DNA of 64,000 nucleotides from Sipunculus nudus (taxonomy: Eukaryota; Annelida; Sipuncula; Golfingiida; Sipunculidae): NCBI GenBank assembly GCA_026874595.1, contig CM049309.1, positions 47,848,079 through 47,912,078 of the forward strand. Direction: 5' to 3'. Position 1 is the stretch's first letter, and the number at the start of each line of letters is the position of its first letter. Below, in pieces: positions 15,101 through 21,100 of this stretch. The notes below the pieces were generated by a model, which was not told the origin of the DNA, searched no databases, and saw only the letters and a list, made by a program, of their open reading frames with translations. Position numbers and translations under genes: made by a program.

Positions 15101-18100
15101 CCAGTTGAGTTGAGTCGGGTCGTGATGTGTATGCACTCCGGTTTTCGCCAGTCTGCAGGGTCAAAAACTGGAAGAAACTGTAGAAAACTTGAGGAAACAT
15201 GTTCAGTGGGGCCCAGTTGAGTCGAGTCGGGTCACAACGTGTATGCCGAGCTTAAAGTAAGAACCCTGTAGGTTCTAGGGTCATGAGGTCAAAGGTCAAG
15301 GTCACTGGACTCGCATCTTAAAAGATACTGTGGATGCATTTTAAGCCAAACTTTCATCCCAGGTCTTCCATATTGAATATATATCTCACTTGCCAATAGT
15401 GGATGATCCATATCAATTTTGGGGTCACAAGGTCAAAGGTCAAGGCCACAGGAGCCATCTGTCAAAAAATTAGTTTCTGGATGATAATTCCTGCTTTTAT
15501 GATGTATTGATTTCAAACTTGACTTATATATGTCCTATTGAAAAAGCAAGACTCCAGTTGATTTTGGGGTCATGAGGTCAAAGGTCAAGGTCACAGGACA
15601 CATCATTAAAAAGATTGTGGATGCATTTTCAGGATGTATGGATTTCAAACTTGACCTGTATATGTCCCATTGGAAAAGCAAGACCCAAATTGATTTTGGG
15701 GTCATGAGGTCAAAGGTCAAGGTCACAGGACACATCTTTAAAAAGATGTGGATGCATATTCAACCAAACATTTCATCTCAGACCTTTCATCTTGCACTTA
15801 TAGTTCACCTGCCAAGAGAGGAAGACCCCTTTCAATTTTGGGGTCACAAGGTCAAAGGGCAAGGTCACAGGAGCCATTTGTCAAAAAATTAGTTTCCGGA
15901 TGATAATTCCTGCTTTTATTGATGTATAGATTTCAAACTTGACTTATTTATGTCCCATTGGAAAAGCAAGACCCCAATTGATTTTGGAGTCATGAGGTCA
16001 AAGGTCAAGGTCACAGTACACATCTTTAAAAAGATTGTAGATTGATAGATGGAAGAAACAATAATTGCTTGCCAAGTGTCAGTAAATGCTGCTAAAAATT
16101 GGGGCCTACTCTTAAAGGGGGGCGGGGCCGTACTATGTCTGGGGATACTCAGGCACCTGCGGTGCCAAGAAATGTCTAGTTGATATTCCAATACTGACTG
16201 GTAGCTCAGAGAAGGATAGATGGTAAAGATTCACCAGTAACTTACAGTACCCTTAATAGGCCATACTGTAGTGCTGTAGTGATAATTAATCTCATGATAC
16301 ATGATTCATGATACTTCACTCACAATACAATACATGAAACAAAGGTAGTATCAGAGTTGACATTCCAATTCTGACTGGTGGCTCAGAGAAGGATATGAAA
16401 GGTAACAATTCATGATATATAGTACCCTTAACAGCCTGTACTGTAGGGCCATGGTGATACTCAAACTCATGGTAAAATACATATCATTATATTTCACTCA
16501 TGATGCAATACATGATATTACAGTATTTTCAAAGCTGACATTCCAATTCATTTGCTCTTCTTTCTTCAAGCTGGCCATGATGCCTTGACTTGCATGCTCT
16601 GTGCCGCTGACTCTTATTAAATGCCTAAGGTTGCTTGGATTGTCTACATTGTCAGTGTATGGATACAGGGGCATCTGACTGTACTAATATGATATCTGAA
16701 TTTGTATCAGTGCACCTGTGAATAGTTCAAGCTTTACTGGGCTATGTGTACAAGGCTATAAGACAAGAATGTTAACAGTATATATGAATGTTGTCGATAA
16801 ATTTCTAAAACCATAGAGGATTTTTTACAGGAATCTTTCTTTAAAAATTTTCAGGGTTTTGTAAACTTAAGTATCTTAATATTTTGCTTGACTACTGCTG
16901 TTTGTTGTAATTTCTTGTGGGTCAGCTTGGGTTCTTGACTAAATGGTTTGTATACTTAGGAACTGTACCAGTCTCTGAATTCTGAATGAACTGGAGTGGT
17001 AGCGGGAAAAACTGAATACCATATATTGATTTTCAAGTATGGATAATGATGTATGTTATTTAAGTAATACATCAATGGAGTGCTTGTAGTTTCCAGTTAA
17101 ATTTATTTTCTGCAGGGTTAAAATGGCATTGATGTATAGCAGTGAATACTCTATAAATGATTGGTTCACCGAGTGTTTGTACCTACTGATTGGTGCAGAG
17201 TTCAGTAGTTTATACTATTTAAATAATCAATCTAGGGTGTTTTTGTATTTACTGAGTATTAATTTATTTTCTTCAGGGTAAAGGTGGTACGAAGACTTTA
17301 ATGAACACCATCATGCAGCTGAGGAAGATTTGTAACCATCCATTTATGTTCCAACACATTGAGGAGGCCTTCGCTGAAACTAATGGCTTACAGATGGCCA
17401 ATGGGTATGCCTACATGCTTGAAAACCAGTTTAGATTCTATGATAGAAATGTGTACATTAAATGTCTTTTGTTTTTTAAACATATGAATAAAATTTTTTT
17501 GAATTGTGTTTTGTCATACCAAGCTGTAAAAAAGTGACATAAAGATTTTGACCTTTAAAGTGTTGAAATAGTGATATAAAGATTTTGACCTTTTGTTTGT
17601 TCCTGGGGCAGGTTACTTTTTTATGACAGAAGACAAGCAAATATATTTACTTGCAGAAATAGATATAATTGTTTCTGGTGTTTTGCAATGTTTATACTGC
17701 AACATTACCTTACAAATCAGAACATGTTGTAAAATATGGTGACAGTAAAAATAGTTGACGACTGATGTTATCTCATATTTAATCCTTAAATTGCAATGAC
17801 TTTACAGGATGAATTTCTGCCTGTTATTTGAAGAATACAGTTCTTTACAGCCATACACTGTTGTGTATTAACTTAAAGTATGTTTGATATGTAATATATT
17901 ATTAAATGTTTCTATCGTCACAGCCCTGACCTGTATCGTGCAGCAGGAAAGTTTGAGCTGTTAGACCGCATTTTGCCCAAGCTTAAAGATACTGGTCACC
18001 GTGTACTGTTGTTCTGTCAGATGACTTCATGCATGAGCATTCTTGAGGATTTCCTCATCTATAGAGGTAGGTGTATGAAATGGGAACAAATTTTTTTATT

Positions 18101-21100
18101 TAATACTGGAGGATTTCCTCATCTACACAGGCAGGTGTATGAAATGGTGAAAATAATCTGTTGAAATGAAAATTTTGTTGTTAAATACTGGAGGATTTCC
18201 TCATCTATAGAGGTAAGTGTATGATATGGGGAAAAAATCTTTTGAAATAGAAATTTTTTGTTAAATACCGGATGATTTCCTCATCTACAGAGGTAGGTGT
18301 ATGAAAAAGATAAAAAAAAACATCTATTTGTTAAATACTGAATGAGATGATTTAATTGTCTTGCACATCATGATTTTTGCTTTTAAAAGTATTTTATTGG
18401 GTTATGCATTTTATCATTTCCACGAGGCCTTACAGTTTTTTAACAATAATATATAAAAATTGATTTTGGAAGCCTTCAAGAATGATACATACATTTATTA
18501 AAAATTAATGGATTAAATGGTGATAATCAATAGTATTTATTTTTCTGTTGTTGAGATTATCATTATTTAGTCTTCCACAAGATGAAATCTGTATTTTTAG
18601 CAATTTTTTTAGCCATCATACTCAAACCATTAGCAAAACAACAATTCACCAGCAAGTGGTAAGTTCAATATCAAGGGAATGAGCTGTCAGAAATAAAAGT
18701 TTTTCTCCAGTCTGCATAATAGGTCATTCGACACGGTGATTCATTCTGCTGCTATAATCTTTGTCTGTTTTTAACAGGATGGAGGTACCTTCGTCTGGAT
18801 GGTACCACCAAGTCCGAGGATCGTGGTCAGCTCCTGGCCATGTTTAACGATCCAAACTCCGGCTACTTCCTGTTCTTGCTCAGTACCAGGGCTGGAGGTC
18901 TTGGTCTCAACTTACAGTCAGCAGACACCGTGCTTATCTTTGATTCCGATTGGAATCCTCACCAGGTTGGTATGATAATCAACTTTTATCATTATTACTA
19001 AATTGTTTTGAAATTTATTAAGTGCATGAAGCAATGAAGGAAAACTGATGGATACTCAGATATTTTAAGACTGATATGGACCAAAACAGTTTCATAGATG
19101 TGAAGATGAAAAAGTGATGAACACTTCTCAGTTAGTGTTTGTTTAAATACATTCATTATTGTCTGTTTTGTACTTTTGAGTAAAATGTTTGGTTCTAGTA
19201 CAACCTCCCAGGTAACTTTTTATTGCTTTTAAGTATTTTTCGAGTTCTCATCTTGACTTTTATATTTTATGTAAAATCAAAAGTATTAAATATTTATTTT
19301 TCTAGACTTTGGGCTGGGTTGACTTAGGTTTATATCTGCAAATATTCCAATAAAAGTATTTTACCTGTGATAATTTCACTTTGAATTAGAGCCGGATACA
19401 CAAGGAAACTGTGCAGAAGTATTAATGAATTATATTCTGTTGAATTATAAATACAAATAAAGCAGCTACCTGGCCATCCAAGGGATTTGTTTGATTAGAT
19501 TTCTCCATCAAGATTTTGTTTTTGAGTGATTCTGTTAGCGTTACTTAATGCAAGTAATATTTGCTGTGTTTGCTAATGTAGGATCTTCAAGCCCAGGACA
19601 GAGCTCACAGAATCGGTCAGAAGAATGAGGTGCGAGTGCTTCGCTTGATGACAGTAAATTCCATTGAAGAACGTATCTTGGCTGCAGCACGGTATAAACT
19701 AAACGTGGATGAGAAAGTTATCCAGGCTGGTATGTTCGATCAGAAATCAACTGGCTCTGAGCGCAGAGAGTTCCTGCAGGCCATCTTGTCTCAGGAAGCA
19801 GAAGATGTGGAGGTAAGCTAAATTTTTCAAAACATCTGTAGTATTTATGGTATTCTTTTCAAAAGCATGTACCATGCTATAAAACATCATGTGATAATTA
19901 TCGTCACAGGCCAAAAGAAGTGAGTGTCCAACACATCAGTATGCACCTGCTCAATCCATTCAGTATTTTAAAGATGCTAGTGATCGGATAAATTTGGACA
20001 ATTTCTCATATTGAACAGCAGGAGAATTTCTTATTTCACAGTTTGCCAATGTACCAGTTGATAACATTTTTCAACCTGTTTTATATACTTAAGTTTTATC
20101 CATGTCTAGAGAGAATTTATTATACCTAAATTATTGCAGTAAAAGTAGTAAAACATTCAGGAAAATATATATGCATATGTATGTATATAAAATATACAAA
20201 TGTATGATTTTCTTTACTTTTTGTTTACATAGGAGGAAGATGAGGTGCCAGATGATGAAACCATCAATCAGATGTTAGCTCGTACTGAGGATGAGTTTGA
20301 GATCTACCAGGTACGTCAAACTTAATGATTAACAGGAGCAGTGAGAAACAACAGTTTCATGTGGAACTAATGTTCACATTTTGGGCAGTAGTAGTTTCTA
20401 ATCAAATTGAGAATTGTTGGGGAAAAATTATTGTTTTAAGGCTGTATGATAAGAAAGCATTGTTACATAGGGCATGAATAAGATCATCAGTATGCCCAGG
20501 TAATTCACATGGGCTACATACTTTGTTTTACAGAAGACACCTGGCATTCATGTTTAATATGTCGAAGTCCATTATCCTTAAGTGATGAGATTCTTCAGAA
20601 TTGGTATTTCTCTATAATAATGGTTTGTATTACAGCAAATGGACCTGGATCGTCGTCGGGCTGAAGCTCGTGACCCGCACCGCAAGCCACGTTTGATGGA
20701 GGAAGATGAACTCCCAACCTGGCTTGTCAAAGATGAAAAGGAGGTAAAGTATTTCTGTTGTATATACCACTCACAAAGGATTATAATATACTCTGCGTAT
20801 GTTGCATATTTTCAGTTTAGATAGTTGTTATGATGAACAGCACAAGTTCATTGTTTAAACTCCATTTTGCAAAAATTCTTATGTCAGTATCTGATGGATT
20901 CTGTAGTTGAAGTTCATCAGGTGTTGAGGGCACACAACCATAACTTAACATTTGTATTGTTTGTTGACCTTTTGGTAAGGAACACTATTGTATTTGAATA
21001 TGTGTAAATTAGTAAGCATGGAGTATCAAGCAAACATATTTATAGAATTAGTGATTTGATGATCAGTATTATTTATGTATTATTCATATATTATTATTAC

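Follow-up and report, generated by a model that had tools for sequence, protein, structure and literature searches.

Several described systems bear on duplicated or adjoining splice sites. Duplication of a segment containing AGGT is presented in PMC4974935 as a route to new introns, with the Rogers model, ATP2A1 and a multicopy fission-yeast case with a 24-bp unit as examples, along with one from potato whose duplication spans an intron-exon boundary. For the reticulon gene of Lipomyces, stwintronisation by duplication of the donor (5' splice site) has been proposed, with removal in one or two steps and with splicing shown by reverse transcription PCR (RT-PCR) (PMC7138796). Exon ends that double as acceptors (3' splice sites) are described as distal exonic recursive sites, and shorter host introns of recursive sites are reported in human (PMC10156609); ratchet points and donor competition are treated in PMC8605326. 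Variable tandem repeats at exon-intron boundaries in human segmental duplications may form novel introns (PMC2812944), and new introns with weak sites have been proposed to be tolerated owing to nonsense-mediated decay (PMC2809761). Here we analyze a 64,000-nucleotide stretch of the Sipunculus nudus genome (assembly GCA_026874595.1, contig CM049309.1, positions 47,848,079 to 47,912,078, forward strand; hereafter, the window), in which the end of a coding exon of a brm/BRG1-type chromatin-remodeller gene, together with its donor, is present in four tandem copies. This array probably represents a nearly neutral duplication across the exon-intron boundary, accompanied by low-level unproductive splicing.

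The motif GATTTCCTCATCTA occurs four times on the plus strand of the window, at 18048, 18112, 18194 and 18274 (spacings of 64, 82 and 80 bp), and was not found on the minus strand. The repeated block consists of the last 22 bases of the exon (18045-18066) and approximately the first 14 bases of the intron, so that the copies lie head to tail across the boundary, each with an exon end and a donor position. All four copies are on the plus strand. Copy 1 (18045..18108) contains the real exon end and the real donor, GAG/GTAGGT, with the GT at 18067. Copy 2 (18109..18190) carries the exon end followed by GC at the donor position (CAG/GCAGGT after 18130), copy 3 (18191..18270) is identical to copy 1 in 22 of the 22 exon-end bases and has the donor GAG/GTAAGT after 18212, and copy 4 (18271..18317) has GAG/GTAGGT after 18292. 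A degenerate start of a further unit, TTTGTTAAATACTGAATGA, follows on the same strand (18327..18345). Compared with the three downstream copies, the 36-mer at 18045-18080 is identical in 34, 34 and 33 of the 36 bases, whereas dinucleotide shuffling of the downstream intron, repeated 500 times, never gave more than 23 matches; in the Tandem Repeats Finder output, the array extends over 18088-18317, the period being 80-82. The motif positions and the shuffles confirm the claim of an earlier note that the exon end and donor are tandemly present four times; its statement that the donor itself was copied holds for the GT sites of copies 3 and 4, and fails for copy 2, which reads GC.

The gene lies on the plus strand, and the window opens inside it; by partial exon placement, it runs from the window start to at least 25.6 kb. 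The exon at 17924..18066 (143 nt, plus strand), which encodes the helicase C-terminal part, was delimited by translation, alignment to BRG1 and GT-AG junctions, and is called exon 16 here, a number carried as a label from an earlier reading. The next coding exon, exon 17 (18778..18965, plus strand), was placed by alignment to BRG1 and its GT-AG junction, with the real acceptor TTTTTAACAG/G. Joining 18066 to 18778 removes a phase-1 GT-AG intron of 711 nt (18067-18777). Human BRG1 was the best match of the two-exon peptide (E = 3.8 × 10−56), the only part of the product that was searched against BRG1; for the remaining exons, placement relied on the expected human BRG1 sequence together with reading frame and GT-AG junctions. 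The resulting exon list is partial, with 18 donors scored, 17 acceptors placed and some exons unplaced.

Substitutions and indels distinguish the copies, with 47 differences among 184 pairwise spacer comparisons, which argues against both a very recent origin and a stutter in assembly. A search of the whole 1.43 Gb assembly with the unit, which passes over simple repeats and very common words, returned this locus alone, once, on the 97.5 Mb contig C4. Although the observation comes from a single assembly, insertion of the copies by mis-assembly thus appears highly improbable. A dispersed mobile element was likewise considered and rejected: the rest of the window gives only weak matches to the unit (local scores of 27 on the plus strand and 26 on the minus strand, taken without a shuffle control), and the assembly search found the one locus. 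No Rfam family matched the window at the gathering threshold.

Donors were scored with a textbook matrix and with a second matrix built from the gene's own 17 other donors. With the textbook matrix, the real donor of copy 1 scores 9.97, the 6th of the 18 placed brm donors; copy 3 scores 11.71, the 10th of the 3,532 GTs on the plus strand of the window; copy 4 ties with the real donor at 9.97; and copy 2 offers a GC site at 5.20 and, 4 bases on, a weaker GT after 18134 at 5.83. The gene's own matrix gives 9.59 for copy 1, 4.63 and 7.23 for the two sites of copy 2, 10.93 for copy 3 and 9.59 for copy 4. Thus, copy 3 is indeed closer to the donor consensus than the real donor, as had been noted earlier. 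Under the textbook matrix, the exon-16 donor is the only one of the 18 with two GTs of at least its own strength within the next 300 bases, and three other brm donors, all weaker, have one such GT each; under the gene's own matrix, the weak donors at 10593 and 17404 also have two equal or stronger GTs nearby.

If exon 16 is extended to any later donor, either the frame is lost, through 64 or 68 additional bases, or translation reaches the first in-frame stop, a TGA at 18162..18164 on the plus strand; translation and path enumeration both bear out the earlier claim to this effect. Donor use at copy 3 or copy 4 would yield an exon of 289 or 369 nt, compared to the native 143 nt, and such longer exons are less favourable under exon definition. 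We enumerated 63 splice paths on paper, with introns down to 30 nt permitted and the GC donor treated as usable, and found 17 that stay in frame without a stop. Eight of these produce the exact normal mRNA (1 directly and 7 through zero-length steps between copies), and the remaining nine insert 2 residues (four paths), 22 residues (four paths) or 24 residues (one path).

The zero-length steps are conceivable because the exon end, TTTCCTCATCTATAGAG, is pyrimidine-rich and finishes in AG, which makes every copy acceptor-like as well, a property that the earlier note had overlooked; in principle, AG/GT splicing between copies could restore the normal mRNA. Acceptors were scored with a matrix built from the gene's own 17 placed acceptors (leave-one-out median 6.29), which, being trained on the brm gene, favours its real exons. 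The acceptor-like site TTTCCTCATCTACACAG of copy 2, before 18131, scores 6.41 and is matched or beaten by 168 of the 3,524 AGs on the plus strand; TTTCCTCATCTACAG of copy 4, before 18291, scores 6.39 and is matched or beaten by 170 of them. Copy 3 (CTATAG before 18211) reaches 4.54, as does copy 1. In copies 3 and 4, the AG immediately next to the donor belongs to a weak GAG (3.16 and 2.27, 707th and 976th of the 3,524 AGs). Every repeat unit thus forms a module of acceptor plus donor, the quality of which is uneven. On splice-site scores alone, the acceptor of copy 2 and the donor of copy 3 would delimit a hypothetical pseudo-exon of 82 nt (18131..18212, plus strand), with both edges at the strength of real exons; the length is not a multiple of three, so that inclusion would shift the frame.

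As to origin, copies 2 to 4 are each preceded by a common spacer end, AATACTGGAGG and variants thereof, and the sequence past copy 4 contains TTTGTTAAATACTGAATGAGATGATTT. To judge from this sequence, 18327-18345 is probably the native intron segment from which the spacer side of the junction derives. In the simplest history, the native intron would have been joined to the exon at TTGAGGATTT by slippage or unequal exchange across short stretches of homology, duplicating in tandem a segment of approximately 80 bp across the boundary of exon 16 and the intron, and amplification of this unit would then have produced four copies. Such a history would account for three extra exon-end and donor copies early in the intron, with the first donor still yielding the normal message and the extra copies persisting as nearly neutral passengers. 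Because two of the extra GT donors match or exceed the real one and the copies resemble acceptors too, low-level use of the extra sites is expected; it may take the form of extended exons or of the 82-nt pseudo-exon, and most such products, being frame-broken, would presumably be removed by nonsense-mediated decay. We consider this combination, a nearly neutral tandem duplication with low-level unproductive splicing, the best reading of the locus and the somewhat more probable one overall.

Comparison of the copies shows constraint that is at best marginal. The exon-derived and donor columns of the unit are variable at 4 of 25 positions, compared to 14 of 37 elsewhere. Divergence was tested with three cuts and two copy sets: the first 19 columns diverge more slowly (two-sided p = 0.038 for four copies and p = 0.070 for copies 2-4), and the other four tests gave p = 0.087-0.16. 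Survival of such donors is expected under drift: the probability that at least two of the three copies keep a donor of ancestral strength is 0.56, 0.38 and 0.29 at assumed per-copy divergences of 0.08, 0.11 and 0.13, respectively. Tandem arrays are, moreover, dense in this gene: nine arrays with a period of at least 20 fill 2,649 of the 26,400 bases (10%) of the brm part of the window. Placed at random, the arrays would cross a donor at least once with a probability of 0.85 (mean 1.5), and the observed number is one; in this calculation, the start of the exon-16 array was set by hand to 18045, and a further brm donor at 1488 was included that entered no other analysis. Thus, one array across a donor is expected by placement.

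A base rate was sought among other helicase-domain loci. Scoring covered 150 of the 261 Helicase_C candidates of the assembly, all 150 of which proved to be matches, and 60 regions were examined, taken from matches without internal stops on contigs C1-C17; the set omits other contigs, stop-bearing matches, very long single frames and repeated equal-scoring frames of 235-236 amino acids, as well as the brm match itself and six further eligible entries. In 57 of the 60 loci, there was no 30-mer repeat with at least 24 matches at a distance of 30-500 bases around the open frame. The three exceptions are a TA simple repeat past a stop (L042), a 24/30 match inside the frame (L075) and an intronic repeat (L078). 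Applied to exon 16, the same method recovers the array (29/30), and applied to eight other brm exons, it gave no hit in six, while the hits in the other two were intronic repeats at a distance from the donor. The rate is rough, as exon edges were not mapped singly and some of the loci are perhaps intronless.

Several observations weigh against passive passengers. A duplication at the donor edge was found in none of the 60 helicase-domain loci, indicating that such duplications are not common, and no other donor among the 18 placed in brm is closely matched anywhere in the 800 bases around it (best 30-mers of 15-20/30, compared to 27-29 at exon 16). Strong decoys beside a real donor might be purged if harmful, and their persistence could mean that they are used. 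Finally, a 307-nt stretch folds more stably than 100 shuffles (z = −3.03). Masking of the copied donors by RNA structure was nonetheless rejected as an explanation: accessibility is 0.020 for copy 1, 0.004 for the GC site of copy 2, 0.059 for copy 3 and 0.001 for copy 4, within the range of the 18 placed donors (0.0001-0.066), and thus fails to separate real from copied donors.

The earlier note had suggested a role for the copies as decoy or poison splice sites. In its developed form, this explanation holds that regulated use of the downstream donors, or of the 82-nt pseudo-exon, sends brm transcripts to nonsense-mediated decay and so tunes the brm level. The donors at 18212 and 18292, which exceed and equal the real one, respectively, and the broken frame or stop that follows from later donors are in accord with it, and the pair 18131-18212 passes cut-offs set at the acceptor of copy 4 and the donor of copy 1. 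Across the brm part, 17 pairs clear these cut-offs: the donor is a real one in 8 of them, 5 fall within coding-like sequence without fixed ends and 4 look non-coding, two of the latter within the exon-16 array. However, the acceptor matrix was trained on the brm gene, the number of plus-strand AGs that equal the site at 18131 is substantial (168 of 3,524), constraint among the copies is marginal and donor accessibility is not distinctive; no literature on such control of the brm gene appeared among the matches listed. A decoy or poison role is possible, yet we regard regulated control of this kind as rather unlikely: the marginal constraint, the drift probabilities and the density of arrays speak otherwise, and a passenger array is the simpler reading.

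A different functional explanation is that the intron is removed stepwise, from the exon-16 donor to the AG/GT of a later copy, with a donor regenerated each time, and finally to 18778; a mis-chosen later donor could conceivably, if improbably, be corrected in the same way. Every copy has an AG directly before the donor position, the 17 in-frame paths and the 8 that restore the exact mRNA show that the arithmetic allows it, and published recursive sites include some in small and medium introns and some at the distal ends of exons (PMC10156609). Copies 3 and 4, however, offer poor acceptors for zero-length steps; copy 2 couples its good acceptor to a GC donor; the first inter-copy intron would be just 64 nt; and the path counts themselves depend on the permissive intron length and the GC donor. 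None of copies 2, 3 and 4 combines a strong acceptor with an abutting strong donor, and the host intron, at 711 nt, is not long and shows no evident need for stepwise removal. We therefore hold stepwise removal to be improbable. The same low probability attaches to the broader proposal that duplication of an exon end doubling as a 3' splice site has made a ready chain of acceptor-donor modules in an animal gene, and, in our estimate, to its corollary that zero-nucleotide splicing between copies shortens the intron unit by unit or fixes a wrong donor choice.

The nearly neutral duplication that we favour can be set beside the described systems. As in AGGT-mediated intron gain (PMC4974935), there are tandem AG/GT copies with pyrimidine-rich sequence ahead, and splicing between copies could spare the protein; unlike in those cases, the unit here spans an existing exon-donor boundary, the copies lie inside an existing intron and they are seen in DNA alone. 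AG/GT is present in copies 1, 3 and 4 and AG/GC in copy 2, and zero-length splices would keep the normal frame, with weak GAG acceptors. The locus resembles the Lipomyces stwintron (PMC7138796) in that the intron's own donor is duplicated, a second acceptor may lie inside the intron and removal in one or two steps is conceivable; inner acceptors lie 64-226 nt into the intron, and splicing from the real donor to them is a possibility on paper. In Lipomyces, however, the duplications are of 4-7 nt, are suggested by the authors and concern a fungus, with RT-PCR data, whereas the present units are approximately 80 bp long, in four copies, in an animal and known from DNA. An acceptor that abuts a donor and an exon end that resembles a 3' splice site are shared with recursive sites (PMC8605326, PMC10156609), but Drosophila ratchet points occur mainly in long introns and have well-conserved motifs (PMC8605326), compared to a 711-nt intron and weak GAG acceptors here. 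Likewise, human boundary repeats (PMC2812944) share the tandem repeat over an exon-intron boundary and the possibility of new splicing; those repeats belong to recent paralogues, many with transcript support, in contrast to the genomic sequence considered here. Among the matches listed, titles and abstract openings included no report of this locus or of an animal multicopy donor array, and a literature search on duplicated, tandem or cryptic donors found no paper, nor did one on recursive splicing in molluscs.

The window holds other repeats. The preceding intron also has a duplicated 3' end, acceptor included (AATTTATTTTCT[T/G]CAGGGT), with a copy 161 bp upstream (17057-17126 and 17216-17287; approximately 68 alignment columns, a score reached by 0 of 500 shuffles). 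This is a second, older-looking splice-boundary duplication in brm, the upstream copy of which runs into a stop in the second codon. Two brm introns contain further arrays: a 121-bp unit repeated 7.9 times with 97% matches at 24102-25054, apparently much younger than the exon-16 array, and a 132-bp tandem array rich in GGTCAAGGTCA motifs at 15501-16042. At 29125-30057, there is an open frame of 311 amino acids which we take to resemble a fragment of a non-LTR (long terminal repeat) retrotransposon reverse transcriptase. Arrays of a 28-bp repeat (CTACTAGGACAAACTC... and its reverse complement) lie in opposite orientation approximately 1.7 kb apart, at 48003-48249 and 49965-50192. In the assembly at large, the helicase matches of contigs C58-C138 are mostly long uninterrupted frames, many of them equal-scoring (C61, C62, C69, C72, C89 and C90), a pattern that suggests cobiont bacterial contigs, and five Helicase_C matches with very long frames (1554-2139 amino acids) fall within approximately 0.7 Mb of a chromosome-size contig (C7, 43.4-44.1 Mb), a clustering that is unusual in an animal genome with many introns. 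Among viral contigs, the exon-17 peptide yielded one 55% relative (L001), and the repeat pattern, no match.

The exon-16 array amounts to a natural four-copy contest of near-identical 5' splice sites, with near-equal upstream exon bases, in one chromatin-remodeller gene. Because the productive donor comes first and is followed by an equal and a stronger copy, the locus bears on the roles of position and strength in donor choice; if the first donor alone is used, it would provide a measure of how well the spliceosome ignores strong decoys. Were the unlikely chain of acceptor-donor modules to prove true, the locus would represent an origin of recursive splice sites by boundary duplication, caught with several copies at different stages of decay. 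More generally, the array bears on whether duplications of this kind give rise in animals to new introns, poison exons or recursive splice sites.

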